In this document: positions 630-54,075 of the stretch, piece by piece
How the letters are laid out: every line of letters starts with the position of its first letter
Position numbering within the stretch: the first letter of the stretch is position 1
Origin: Thioalkalivibrio sulfidiphilus HL-EbGr7
GTDB taxonomy: Bacteria > Pseudomonadota > Gammaproteobacteria > Ectothiorhodospirales > Ectothiorhodospiraceae
DNA: 64,000 nucleotides
NCBI RefSeq assembly: GCF_000021985.1
Contig: NC_011901.1
Location: 496,001 to 560,000, forward strand
Reading direction: 5' to 3'
Made by a program: the position numbers and the translations under genes
The notes under the pieces: model-generated
Told to the model about the DNA's origin: nothing
What the model saw: only the letters and a program-made list of their open reading frames with translations
The model's database searches: none

Positions 630-807
630 ATGGACAGGATTTACAGGATTGTTCTGGATCGACAGGAAAAAGAAAGAACAATTTTTGACAGGATTTACAT
701 GATTAACACGATTAAGGCATTTCAAAAAATCATGTTAATCATGTAAATCCTGTCGATTCCTTTGTTTTCTTACAGTCCTGAAAAATCCTGTTCATCCTGT
801 CCATTCG
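630..807. repeat. Nested palindrome, GACAGGATTT family (glnE-ilvE gap)
   Basis: The outer arms read AATGGACAGGATTTACAGG on the left and the complement of the same words on the right (about 786-807). An inner pair at 687-714 and 725-755 carries GACAGGATTTACATGATTAA and its complement around a loop of about 10 bases. AAGAAAGAACA on the left and TGTTTTCTT on the right also mirror each other. The whole gap between glnE and ilvE is therefore one large imperfect hairpin. No coding potential is seen in it. Confidence 0.85.
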
Positions 808-16063: not shown

Positions 16064-17311
16064 ATGTGGCGTGCCCTCTATTCCCTGCTGCTGTACCTGC
16101 TGTGGCCCCTGGTGGCCATGCGGTTGCTGTGGCGCGCCCGGCGCAATCCGGAATACCGGCGGCGTTGGGGGGAGCGCTTTGCCGTGGGGCCGCGCCTGGA
16201 TGCTGCGCCCCGCCTCTGGGTTCATGCGGTCTCCGTGGGGGAGGTGGTGGCTGCGGTGCCGCTGGTGCGCGCGCTAATGGCCCGTTTCCCGGATCACCGC
16301 ATCCTGGTCACCACCACCACGCCCACCGGCTCTGCCGAGTTGCGCCGCCGCCTGGGTGAGACGGTGGAGCACCGTTACCTGCCCCTGGATCTGCCCCATC
16401 TGATGCGCGGCCTGGTGCGTGCCGTCCGGCCGCGCCTGCTCGTGGTCATGGAGACGGAACTCTGGCCCAACCTGTTCGCCGCCTGCCGCCGGCAGGGGGT
16501 GCCGGTGATGCTGGTCAACGGGCGGCTCTCGGCGCGTTCTTTCCAGGGCTACCGGCGCATCCGGCCCCTGGTGGCCGAGGCCTTGGGGGCGGTGACCGCG
16601 CTGGCGGCCCGGTCGGAGGAGGATGCCGAGCGGTTCATCGGGCTGGGCGCCAGGCCCGAGCGGGTGCGGGTGACCGGCAATCTGAAATACGACCTGGAAC
16701 TGCCGGCAGGCGGGGAGGGGATCAAGCCCCTGACGCGACCCGCGTGGATCGCGGCCAGTACCCACGAGGGCGAGGATGCGCGTCTGCTCGCGGTCCACGG
16801 GCGGATACTCGAACGTGTGCCGGACGCCTTGCTGATCCTGGTGCCCCGGCATCCGGAGCGTTTCGAGGCGGTGGCCGAGCTGTGTCGGGCGGTGGGCATG
16901 CCGGCTGCCCGGCGTTCACGGGGTGAGCGGCCGGGTCCCGCCACCCGGGTGTGGCTGGGCGACACCATGGGTGAATTGCCCGAACTGTTTCCCCTCGCCC
17001 GGGTGGCCTTCATGGGCGGCAGCCTGGTGCCGACCGGCGGGCACAACCCCCTGGAGGCGGCGGCCCATGGACTTCCGGTGCTGACCGGCCCCCACGTGTT
17101 CAACTTCCGCGAGGTGTTCGACGCCCTGGTGCAGGCGGGTGGGGCAGAGGTGGTGGGTGACGAGGCCTCCCTGGCCGAGCGCCTCATCGCGCTGCTCAAC
17201 GATGAGGCCGAGCGTTCGCGCCGGGGCGAGGCGGCGGCGCGGGTGGTGCAGGAAAACCGGGGCGCGGTGGCGCGTGTGGTGGACTGGGTGGGGCAAGTGG
17301 CGAGTGGCTAG
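16064..17311 (+). CDS. waaA: 3-deoxy-D-manno-octulosonic acid (Kdo) transferase
   Basis: 415 residues. N-terminal membrane anchor (LYSLLLYLLWPLVAMRLLW), then a GT-B fold with HAVSVGEVVAAVPLVRAL, TTTTPTGSAEL, METELWPNL, and MGGSLVPTGGHNPLEAAAHGLPV in the donor domain. It transfers Kdo from CMP-Kdo to lipid IVA. Length and motifs are normal. The last codons (WVGQVASG, TAG) already read into a repeat arm of the CAAGTGGC type. It is divergent from lpxL. Confidence 0.95.
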   Translation: MWRALYSLLLYLLWPLVAMRLLWRARRNPEYRRRWGERFAVGPRLDAAPRLWVHAVSVGEVVAAVPLVRALMARFPDHRILVTTTTPTGSAELRRRLGETVEHRYLPLDLPHLMRGLVRAVRPRLLVVMETELWPNLFAACRRQGVPVMLVNGRLSARSFQGYRRIRPLVAEALGAVTALAARSEEDAERFIGLGARPERVRVTGNLKYDLELPAGGEGIKPLTRPAWIAASTHEGEDARLLAVHGRILERVPDALLILVPRHPERFEAVAELCRAVGMPAARRSRGERPGPATRVWLGDTMGELPELFPLARVAFMGGSLVPTGGHNPLEAAAHGLPVLTGPHVFNFREVFDALVQAGGAEVVGDEASLAERLIALLNDEAERSRRGEAAARVVQENRGAVARVVDWVGQVASG

Positions 17312-17526
17312 TCTCAAGTGGCAAGGAAGAGCCAAGGCTTGCCGCAGAGACGCGGAGGCGCAGAGAAATCAAGGGAATTGACAGGATTTACATGATGAAC
17401 ATGATTTCAAATACCGGTTTACGTGCGCTCTGATTTAATCCTGTCAATCATGTGAATCCTGTCAGATGGATTTTCCTCTGTACCTTCGCGTCTCTGCGGC
17501 AAGCCTTTCACAGCCTGGGCCACTTG
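17312..17526. repeat. Composite nested palindrome, three word families
   Basis: Concentric arms in mirrored order. The outer pair is CAAGTGGCGAGTGGC / CCACTTGCTACTTG. The middle pair is GGCTTGCCGCAGAGACGCGG (from about 17336) with its complement ending GGCAAGCC near 17507. The inner pair is GACAGGATTTACATGATGAA (from 17380) with its complement at 17437-17463. The central loop is about 30 bases. The outer arms run into the stop codons of both waaA and the isochorismatase-like gene. Confidence 0.85.
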
Positions 17527-18090
17527 CTACTTGATCAAGGCCGACAGGGCCTTGAACTGGGAATGCCTTGCATCCCGCAGCCATTCGAAGATCACCGACT
17601 CGTGGTTGGTCACCACGGCGCCGGCCTGGCGCAGGCGGTGCAGGGCGTTGGCCTTGTGGGCCGGGTCACGGGAGCAGACGGCGTCTTCCACCACGAAGGG
17701 GGTGAAGCCGGCGCCGAGCAGGTCCAGGGCGGTCTGCAACACGCACACGTGGGTCTCCATGCCGCAGACCACCACCTGGGGGCGGCGGGCCGATTTCAAC
17801 GCGTCCAGCAGGCCGGAATCCCCGCAGCAGGAGAAGGAGGTCTTGTCCAGCACCCGAGCGCTGGCCGGCAACTGCGCGGCCAGGGGCGCCACGGTAGGAC
17901 CGAGTCCCTTGGGGTACTGCTCGGAGACCAGCACCGGGATCTCCAGCTGGCCGGCGGCCTGGGCCAGGCGCCCGGCGGCGCGCACCACGCCCTCCCGGGC
18001 CGTGGCATCCATGGCGCCGGCCAGGCGCTCCTGGACGTCGACGATCAGCAACTGCCCGTGGGCGGCGTGACAGAGTCCTAGGGCCTGCAC
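17527..18090 (-). CDS. Isochorismatase-family cysteine hydrolase
   Basis: 187 residues with LLIVDVQERLAGAM (catalytic D), a lysine region near KTSFSCCG, and VVCGMETHVCVLQTALDLL, where the second cysteine is the nucleophile and the cis-peptide precedes it. Substrate unknown; relatives hydrolyse amides such as nicotinamide or ureidoacrylate-type compounds. The GTG start lies 4 bases after the tolC stop, so it is the last gene of the pcm-like - rhodanese - tolC run. Its TAG stop lies in a repeat arm. Confidence 0.85.
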   Translation of the reverse strand: MQALGLCHAAHGQLLIVDVQERLAGAMDATAREGVVRAAGRLAQAAGQLEIPVLVSEQYPKGLGPTVAPLAAQLPASARVLDKTSFSCCGDSGLLDALKSARRPQVVVCGMETHVCVLQTALDLLGAGFTPFVVEDAVCSRDPAHKANALHRLRQAGAVVTNHESVIFEWLRDARHSQFKALSALIK

Positions 18091-18094
18091 GGGA

Positions 18095-19417
18095 TCACTC
18101 CAGCCAGGCGTTGATGGCCTGAATGTCCTGCTCGTCCAGGGTGCCGGCGGCCTGCTTCAGGCGCAGGGTGTTGACCACGAATTCATAGCGGGCCTGGGCG
18201 TAGTCCCGCTGGGCGCGAAACACCTCGCGCAGGGCCAGCAGCACGTCCACGGCGGTGCGGGTGCCCACCTCGAAGCCCGCCTCAGCGGCCTCGGCGGCGG
18301 CCTGGGTGGAGGCCAGGGCCTGGTTCAGGGCCTGCACCCGGGAGATCCCGGCGACTACGGACAGGTAGGCACTGCGGGTCTGCTGCACGGTCAGGCGCTG
18401 GGTCAGTTCCAGCTGTTCACGGGCGCTGTCGAAGCGTTCCCGGGACTCGCGGGTGAGCGAGGAGGTGCGCCCGCCACTGTAGATGGGCACGCGCAGCTGC
18501 AGGGCGATCTGGGCGTCGGTGCGGTCCAGGAGCTGGGAGTTGGCCGTCGGGGCGCCGCTGTTGTCGATGTCCGCGTAGCTGGCCTGCAGGCCCACGGTGG
18601 GGTAGTGGCCGGCGCGTTGGCGCTTGATCTCCTCGGCGGCGGCCTCGGTGGCGAAGCGCCGGGCGGTCAGGCCCAGGTTGCGGTCGATGGCGCTCTCCAC
18701 CCAGCGGCTCATGTCGGCGGGTTCCGGCGTGGTCAGGGGCAGGCGGTCGCTCAGACTGGCCAGGGCCTCGTAGTACTGGCCGGTGACCACTGCCAGCTGT
18801 TCCCGGGCGATGTCCAGCTGGTTGCGGGCGGCGATCTCCTGGGCCACGGCGATGTCGAACTGGGCCTGGGATTCCTTCACGTCGGTGATCGCGATCAGCC
18901 CCACCTCGAAACGCCGCTCCGCCTGTTCCAGCTGCCGGCCGATGGCCTCCTTCTCGGCCTCGGCGAAGGACAGGGTGTCCTGGGCAGTGAGCACGCCGAA
19001 GTAGGACTCGGCCACGCGCAGGATCAGGGCCTGGCGGGCGGCGTCGCGGAACGCTGTGGCCTGGGCGATGCCCAGGTCCGCCTGGCGCAGGGCCACGTAG
19101 TTGCGGTGGTCGTAGACGCTCTGGTTCAGGGTGATGTCGAAGCGGGTGGTGTCGTAGCTGAAACTGGAGCCGGGGGACGGTTCACTGCGGGTGTGCGCCT
19201 GGGTGGCACCGGCATCGATCTGGGGCAGCAGCACGGAGCGGGCCTGGGGGCGGGCCTCCAGAGCGGCCCGGTAGTCGGCCTCTGCGGCGCGCAGTTCGGC
19301 ATCGTGCTGCAGGGCCGTCTGGTAGATGGTCCAGAGGTCCGCCGCCTGGCTGGTGGGCAGCAGGAGCACGGCGCCCAGGGTCAGGGACAGGAGGATGCGA
19401 TGCAGTCGGGTGGTCAT
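18095..19417 (-). CDS. tolC: TolC-family outer membrane channel
   Basis: 440 residues: signal peptide MTTRLHRILLSLTLGAVLLLPTSQA, then two OEP repeats typical of TolC (first starting near DLWTIYQTALQHDAELRAA, second near MSRWVESAIDRNLGLTARRFA), with long coiled-coil helices and AYLSVVAGISRVQALNQAL. It forms the trimeric outer-membrane exit duct for type I secretion and drug efflux. The ATG at 19417 is chosen over 19429 because GGAG lies just upstream. Neighbouring pcm-like and waaA genes are a conserved setting. Confidence 0.93.
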   Translation of the reverse strand: MTTRLHRILLSLTLGAVLLLPTSQAADLWTIYQTALQHDAELRAAEADYRAALEARPQARSVLLPQIDAGATQAHTRSEPSPGSSFSYDTTRFDITLNQSVYDHRNYVALRQADLGIAQATAFRDAARQALILRVAESYFGVLTAQDTLSFAEAEKEAIGRQLEQAERRFEVGLIAITDVKESQAQFDIAVAQEIAARNQLDIAREQLAVVTGQYYEALASLSDRLPLTTPEPADMSRWVESAIDRNLGLTARRFATEAAAEEIKRQRAGHYPTVGLQASYADIDNSGAPTANSQLLDRTDAQIALQLRVPIYSGGRTSSLTRESRERFDSAREQLELTQRLTVQQTRSAYLSVVAGISRVQALNQALASTQAAAEAAEAGFEVGTRTAVDVLLALREVFRAQRDYAQARYEFVVNTLRLKQAAGTLDEQDIQAINAWLE

Positions 19418-22154: not shown

Positions 22155-22360
22155 TAAGGCTGCCGCAGAGGCGCGGAGGCGCAGAAAAGTCAAAGGATCG
22201 GACAGGATTTACATGATTAACAGGATTGAATCAGAAACCACAAAATCCATGTTTTAAATCTTGTTAATCATGTAAATCCTGTCGAGTCAGTTCTTCTCCG
22301 CGCCTCTGCGGCAAGCCTTTGATTTTTCTTGCCACTAGCCACTTGCTACTTGCCACTATT
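22155..22360. repeat. Composite nested palindrome, two to three word families
   Basis: The middle pair is GGCTGCCGCAGAGGCGCGGA (from 22158) with its complement ending GGCAAGCC near 22317. The inner pair is GACAGGATTTACATGATTAA (from 22200) with its complement at 22257-22283. On the right side only, CTTGCCACTAGCCACTTGCT (22329-) adds the outer family seen on both sides at 17312-17526. The pap stop codon occupies the place of the missing left outer arm. Confidence 0.85.
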
Positions 22361-22402
22361 CCAGCAAACCCGACCGGGCTGCTATAGTTTCAGATCAAGA
22401 CG

Positions 22403-24438
<2,036 letters not shown>

Positions 24439-29716: not shown

Positions 29717-29799
29717 GGACAAGATTAACATGATTTACAGGATTGGGTCATGAAAGACGAGTCCTTGTCTCAAATCCTGTAAATCATGTTAATCCTGTC
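29717..29799. repeat. Palindrome, GACAGGATTT family with inverted core
   Basis: Left arm GGACAAGATTAACATGATTT and right arm AAATCATGTTAATCCTGTC, loop about 30 bases. The central words are in the opposite order (TTAACATGATTTAC) to those in the copies at 687, 1778, 17380 and 22200 (TTTACATGATTAAC). Confidence 0.83.
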
Positions 29800-29851
29800 G
29801 ATTTACCCGGTCCCAGGTCTTGATCTGCTGGGTATGCTGGTCTTTTTCACG

Positions 29852-53954: not shown

Positions 53955-54075
53955 TGAACGCAGAGAGCGCAGAGGCGCAGAGAACGCAGAGGTCATGGAA
54001 AAAAACGGGCGTTCGCCCGTTTTTTGTTTGAAGTGCTTCTTTGCGATCTCCGCGTCTTTGCGTCCTCTGCGTTAA
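53955..54075. repeat. Palindrome, CGCAGAGGCGCAGAG family, with terminator in its centre
   Basis: GAACGCAGAGAGCGCAGAGG... (53955-53993) and GCGATCTCCGCGTCTTTGCG...CTCTGCGTT (54043-54073) pair imperfectly. At the centre AAAAACGGGCG-TTCG-CCCGTTTTTT (about 53999-54025) is a complete terminator. Lies between convergent hslO and moeB. Confidence 0.85.
53999..54026. terminator. Bidirectional rho-independent terminator, hslO / moeB
   Basis: Perfect stem AAAAACGGGCG / CGCCCGTTTTT with a tight TT loop region and a T-tract on both strands, inside the palindrome described at 53955. Confidence 0.93.

Follow-up and report, generated by a model that had tools for sequence, protein, structure and literature searches.

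How three palindromes come to lie one inside another is the question raised by the DNA that separates waaA from a convergent isochorismatase-family gene in Thioalkalivibrio sulfidiphilus HL-EbGr7. The window analysed here is a 64,000-nucleotide (nt) stretch of this genome (positions 496,001 to 560,000 of NC_011901.1), and the original prediction, made from its letters, placed three nested word families at 17294-17534. Two sources of the nesting were offered, a palindrome entering the loop or axis of an earlier one or arms growing outward from the gene ends; axis insertion would make the innermost family the youngest. Our comparisons favor another origin, with a rough probability of 0.55: a layered palindrome whose arm pairs may serve as hinges, so that the inside could be inverted or swapped by exchange through the arms.

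The three families are real and their coordinates were right. A search for inverted pairs (24 nt, at least 20 matches) returned 22 for the actual sequence, two nested layers among them, and not even one in 300 dinucleotide shuffles. The layers follow a strictly concentric outer-middle-inner-loop-inner-middle-outer order (Table 1). Words of CGCAGAG plus one base, with an 8-nt period, make up the middle layer, or shell, whose 35-nt arms are 89% complementary; the inner layer, core A, consists of GACAGGATT and its variants with a 9-nt period, and its 28-nt arms are 86% complementary. The outer layer of heptads overlaps the stop codons of both flanking genes and is weak in HL-EbGr7 alone (17310-17322 against 17519-17531, 13 nt, 85%; 12 of 14 nt in register). 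We regard it as real because, in the orthologous gap of a sister strain, G004, 34 of the 36 nt of the outer arms are matched.

Folding of 17270-17560 as DNA gave a z of -8.7 and folding of the waaA-gap region as RNA a z of -13.4, with 0 of 200 shuffles equally good in each case. Rfam covariance models returned no match to 16900-18100 up to an E value of 1, and a scan of 17000-18000 for a GC stem followed by a T run, as in an intrinsic terminator, found 0 sites. The left core arm holds a sigma-70-like promoter match (10/12 at 17378-17405; shuffle mean, 0.0), as a match to the consensus only.

Table 1. Nested element at the waaA gap and related palindromes in the window (positions are those of the window).
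Feature	Position	Strand	Basis or remark
waaA (KDO transferase), upstream gene	16064..17311	+	Pfam
Outer layer, left heptad arm; initial 18 nt are the end of waaA	17294..17328	+	36-nt arm pair in G004 (34/36)
Middle layer (shell), left arm, CGCAGAG-type words	17334..17368	+	Inverted pair I1
Inner layer (core A), left arm, GACAGGATT-type words	17379..17406	+	Inverted pair I2
Variable loop, 30 nt	17407..17436		
Inner layer (core A), right arm	17437..17464	-	Inverted pair I2
Middle layer (shell), right arm	17473..17507	-	Inverted pair I1
Outer layer, right heptad arm; overlaps isochorismatase-family stop codon	17520..17533	-	Shorter than in G004
Isochorismatase-family gene, convergent neighbour	17527..18090	-	Pfam
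Core A palindrome within core B palindrome, no CGCAGAG shell	633..802		Same in G004
Second copy in the window (shell and core A), heptads on right side only	22156..22357		Same core in G004
Core-A-only palindrome	29718..29800		
Shell-only palindrome, mixed CGCAGAG/CGCAAAG words	53959..54072		

The element is one copy of a dispersed layered palindrome found just after stop codons. BLAST of the waaA gap against its own genome (3,464,554 bases) gave at least 79 matches at no fewer than 40 loci. These copy numbers are lower bounds, with 40 of the 221 first-look candidates scored, and 40 of 162 in a further scan; the shell-to-core pattern search shows further copies in HL-EbGr7 beyond the 40 BLAST loci. 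Counted strand by strand, this genome has 34 and 31 occurrences of the core pattern, against 0 for the reversed control. Only 5 of 274 sampled genomes of the class contain it, HL-EbGr7 included, and it is therefore not general in the class.

Each layer also exists on its own. When exact words were used as tokens in the regions fetched around copies in both strains, a rule that undercounts decayed layers, 27 clusters held the core alone, 8 heptads alone, 20 shell words alone and 54 both shell and core (30 in HL-EbGr7 and 24 in G004, one of them enclosed by heptads). The layers are thus separate families, as the original prediction held, and their nesting is strict, with the shell outside the core in all 54 clusters that contain both. 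On one strand, shell followed by core within 30 nt matched 88, 75, 15 and 3 times in HL-EbGr7, G004, G003 and G002 and never in G001, overlapping matches within one array being counted. An unnested arrangement, which would have told against the prediction, was not seen: core followed by shell within 30 nt matched 0 times across these five Thioalkalivibrio genomes. The scans used the pattern GACAGGAT in one run and ACAGGATT in the other, and the reversed control of the GACAGGAT scan gave 0 matches, except 1 in G002.

One-, two- and three-layer forms, which the prediction proposed to seek by aligning the gap in relatives, all exist, among them heptad-only, shell-only and core-only palindromes. 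The waaA gap itself carries other heptad repeats, of the GTGAGGC type, in two congeners: alone in G001 and together with a one-sided CACAGAG array in G002. An additional core family, B, encloses core A at 633-802 of the window and at chromosomal position 1277345 (L035). Shell, B and A occur together once, near 2611019 (L031); all three places show further layers of the same kind. Adjoining the second copy in the window, 22380-22480 resembles a TPP riboswitch upstream of a thiC-like start. By eye, the loop at 53959-54072 holds a hairpin between A and T runs; the terminator scan found none there.

HL-EbGr7 and G004 were compared at 40 orthologous sites, whose classes were given by reading the alignments. 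Nine of the pairs are additions, taken from copies in G004 or from palindromes nearby, and the HL-EbGr7 BLAST loci 57898, 680824, 1277345, 1426431, 3019047, 3440091, 2780312, 1639205 and 2897949 lie outside the pairs. The inside is the same at 15 sites and inverted at 6; the core is unrelated at 9, the shell belongs to another family at 8, half is lost at 1 (2617829, a half palindrome in G004) and 1 is ambiguous (3100271). None of the 40 sites compared is empty in either strain, and empty sites could still exist among copies outside the comparison, such as C17:27309. Fourteen sites were found by synteny and were absent from the element searches of the strain concerned; 13 of these carry a palindrome and 1 is the half.

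The six inverted sites (202556, 3127520, 1095985, 2936837, 3383234 and 1673.4k) have loops that are 0.87 to 1.00 identical when reversed versus 0.51 to 0.72 forward, and loops of different sites reach at most 0.75 (n = 702 pairs). Four flips also carried the shell-core spacers to the opposite sides, which places the exchange in the shell arms. At 2936837 the spacers stayed, and at the core-only site 1673.4k the loop alone turned; in these two flips the exchange was therefore in the core arms. Six flips among 21 conserved cores correspond, in a simple two-state model, to about 0.42 flips per site, at a flank divergence of about 4%.

The waaA gap is one of the nine sites with unrelated cores: its heptads and right CGCAGAG shell arm are conserved, and the core is A in HL-EbGr7 and B in G004. 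In this respect the predicted age order is partly supported, with evidence for a younger inside at this gap. A search for donors of the swapped cores identified none for most of them. Six of the eight sites with different shell families have shell plus core in one strain and, in the other, a palindrome of shell words alone (CGCAAAG or mixed); of the others, the HL-EbGr7 copy at 3401272 combines a CGCAGAG shell and a degenerate core, and 2768.6k is shell-only in both strains. At 2935.9k the HL-EbGr7 site is shell-only and the G004 element is a near copy (core, 0.98) of an element 1 kb away; a site that already has a palindrome can therefore receive a copy from close by in its place. By eye, the last codons of the gene upstream of this site (C14:8554 in G004) differ between the strains and apparently encode the same residues, and the stop codons differ. 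Shell arms also vary between strains by 7 to 8 or 16 nt (for example, at 224349, 2891233, 3273193 and 2620172), about one or two shell words, which suggests slippage.

These two strains display an inside that has been inverted or replaced while the outer layers and flanks stay, in a family whose layers have a fixed order. We propose that each side of the element is a composite unit of shell words, spacer and core words, that two such units face each other around the variable loop, and that at waaA the pair sits within a third, separate heptad palindrome. Each arm pair would act as a hinge. Strand exchange between the inverted arms, by recombination or by hairpin template switching, would invert everything within them, and exchange with another copy through the arms would replace it. 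The inner content would be renewed more often, because exchange through an arm pair would affect everything within that pair, and an inside-younger order could arise with no axis insertion. Nested order would come about because two composite units face each other, and the insertion of palindrome into palindrome would not be needed.

Import of old gap alleles from other strains by homologous recombination in the flanks, with the arms passive, could give the same picture. Where the shell family differs (4 sites), identity in the nearest 20 nt of flank does fall to 0.65; these sites look like whole-gap replacement, which may include import. At flipped and core-swapped sites (12 of the 29 pairs, out of 40, for which flank profiles were made), however, the nearest 20 nt are as alike as elsewhere, at 0.97 and 0.91 compared with 0.95 at unchanged sites, and both classes are therefore internal events. 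A near-identical inside that is inverted also needs an inverting step in some lineage, and the exchange points fall in two different arm pairs. We consider import an unlikely account of the sites as a whole.

The element might also be mobile, of REP type or MITE type, with a transposase acting on it in trans. Its 40 or more dispersed copies, the near copy 1 kb away, a spread across phyla (below) and the presence of five Y1_Tnp genes in the genome all agree with such mobility. Like REPs, BIMEs and REPINs, which are short palindromic intergenic repeats present many times per genome and often as hairpin-forming inverted pairs (PMC3733652; REPINs as defined in PMC3116915), the element occurs in many intergenic palindromic copies paired in inverted orientation. 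Unlike those repeats as characterized in these sources, it is larger, layered and built from 8- and 9-nt words. GTAG or CTAC stands at the ends of 0 of 33 copies, and any of GTAG, CTAC, CGTC or GACG at those of 4 of 33; the GTAG-5 REPs listed for Thioalkalivibrio sp. HL-EbGR7 are a different kind of repeat (PMC3733652). Searches of 3.3-kb loci around the five Y1_Tnp genes, about 1.5 kb to each side, met isolated words only and no RAYT gene flanked by a copy of the element.

With MITEs the element shares non-autonomy, terminal inverted repeats and many copies. It differs from them in that the five Y1_Tnp loci yielded no partner transposase and in having no target duplication in 33 copies, where abutting repeats of 2 to 9 nt numbered 0 and shared 5-mers within 4 nt of the ends numbered 2 against 0.72 expected. 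Also similar are the short dispersed repeats of cyanobacteria (Elhai 2008), reportedly very short and mobile, some of them lying inside other repeats. With the end tags scarce, target duplications absent from the copies examined and none of the 40 sites empty, transposition in trans seems an improbable explanation for the element.

Two other systems resemble the events themselves. Chloroplast small inversions of 5 to 50 bp occur at repeats of 11 to 24 bp, as cited in PMC12928735, and in those hairpins, too, the flanks keep their orientation and the loop enclosed by the short inverted repeats is reversed; an inverted loop with conserved flanks and arms was found between our two strains at 6 of 40 sites. 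In contrast to the chloroplast hairpins as presented there, the element belongs to a dispersed bacterial family, has two nested arm pairs as separate exchange points and undergoes core replacement as well. The small variable segments of PMC2884548 are alternative short sequences at one site across strains of a species and, as here, some of the alternatives at orthologous sites are palindromic units. They differ in that their description includes neither layering nor inversion, a word that appears 0 times in the main text of that paper. Our search of the open-access literature found no description of these words or of layered flipping.

Words in shell-to-core order also occur far from Thioalkalivibrio. 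A scan of species-representative genomes with the exact shell-to-core pattern, which selects that order itself, gave at least 114 stretches, of which 80 were fetched. Among the matches listed, carriers were Thioalkalivibrio, Saprospiraceae, Kiritimatiellae, other Verrucomicrobia, Muproteobacteria, Betaproteobacteria, Chloroflexi, Planctomycetaceae and Armatimonadetes, taxa taken from assembly labels that are in many cases those of metagenome assemblies, where single contigs may be misbinned. A viral contig collection gave 0 matches to the pattern. In Thioalkalivibrio, 20 of the 22 matches listed were two-sided. Of those listed outside the genus, 50 of 66 were one-sided, including 16 of 16 in Kiritimatiellae and 11 of 12 in other Verrucomicrobia; 15 had the core on both sides and 1 had core and shell on both. 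Units in other phyla being mostly one-sided, the nested form seems to reflect two composite units paired in inverted orientation.

Searches for both orders over nine carrier genomes gave 159 shell-to-core versus 27 core-to-shell matches, overlapping matches included, and 19 of the 27 lie in one genome with direct arrays. Direct, non-inverted arrays alternating shell and core words were seen in assemblies labelled Verrucomicrobia and Kiritimatiellaeota (L163, L183, L192 and G297). A Saprospiraceae genome (G300, reached via L201) has a conserved family (14 matches) in which a single CGCAGAG word is separated from ACAGGATT by about 28 nt of spacer.

These distributions bear on the axis insertion of the original prediction, in which palindromes enter the axis or loop of older ones and the layers are independent insertions ordered by age. 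Every family does occur alone, core A lies in the loop of core B in two cases (633-802 and 1277345) and the outer layers at waaA are conserved around differing cores. Random insertion should, however, yield mixed orders, not the strict order of 54 clusters in 54, and should leave target duplications, which 33 copies do not have. In none of the 40 orthologous pairs does an outer palindrome common to both strains carry a clean inner insert in one of them alone, and shell and core keep their fixed order in other phyla where there is no palindrome at all. Axis insertion is thus not supported as the source of the nesting, the order being better explained by a composite unit set as an inverted pair, together with exchanges through the arms that renew whatever they enclose, and we think successive insertion quite unlikely as a general account.

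A further rival is a transcription terminator or other RNA structure kept by selection through compensatory changes. By a crude gene caller, 27 copies are in tandem, 11 in convergent and 2 in divergent gaps, the background of gaps of at least 100 nt being 67, 26 and 16, and 23 of the 27 copies in tandem gaps start no more than 35 nt past the upstream stop codon. This position after stop codons, together with the RNA fold of the waaA gap, agrees with such a role, as does the covariation of shell base 10 between the two arms (24 to 4, Fisher p 0.0003, in 28 of 33 copies after removal of five whose ends were misplaced or irregular). So do the loops, 32 of 36 of which are rich in A on their left side and in T on their right, and a heptad-only palindrome enclosing an intrinsic-terminator-like hairpin at 2890600-2890714 of the HL-EbGr7 genome (L010, 4700-4815).

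Against this role, the terminator scan of the waaA region was empty, as noted above, and loops folded no more stably than matched shuffles (p 0.06 and 0.14); as terminators, loops were not significant by this comparison, and we rejected that candidate. Over the whole core arm, the two sides of one copy resemble each other no more than sides taken from different copies do (0.907 vs 0.904, p 0.32), a result that also led us to reject palindrome correction as the sole keeper of the arms. Covariation is nonetheless present in shell base 10 and in core unit 2, which matches within copies more than between them (p 1e-4), whereas unit 3 does so less (p 0.01; 35 copies for both units and for the whole arm). 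The departures from symmetry are ordered: no copy has T at core position 23 in both of its arms (0 of 39 copies in HL-EbGr7, p 0.002, and 0 of 26 in G004, p 0.045, a few of these copies having poor arms), and the core therefore has polarity, whose direction relative to tandem genes is 8 to 8. RNA structure is doubtful as the explanation for the layered form, and it is not exclusive of exchange through the arms.

That the flips are errors in the draft assembly of G004, with its roughly 70 contigs, is highly implausible, given arms of 27 to 35 nt that are short against reads of usual length, substitutions of their own in 4 of the 6 flipped loops, and core replacements that misorientation could not produce.

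The likely role of the element in the cell would be that of a tolerated hairpin at mRNA 3' ends, which, as we infer, an unnamed agent would have spread as a non-autonomous repeat. Position and fold are weakly suggestive of a role at 3' ends; only 2 of 40 copies lie in divergent gaps, yet such gaps make up a low share of the background as well (16 of 109). More tentatively, and at somewhat less than even odds, the layers may be independent hinges of a word-based class of intergenic elements that spans distant phyla, each arm pair letting its inside rotate or be swapped, with sites cycling through many forms, palindromic throughout, by means other than a known transposase. As part of that same tentative reading, units with a fixed order of shell and then core may have become layered palindromes in Thioalkalivibrio.

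The ways in which short palindromic repeats of bacteria spread and change are poorly understood. At sites of a single kind, the two close strains compared here differ by inversion, by core replacement and by shell replacement, fast in comparison with substitution, and the nested arms reveal which layer each exchange used. If the proposed mechanism is true, these elements would serve as natural recorders of exchanges that pass through short inverted arms, and the word order common to several phyla would become a concrete question of mobility or convergence.
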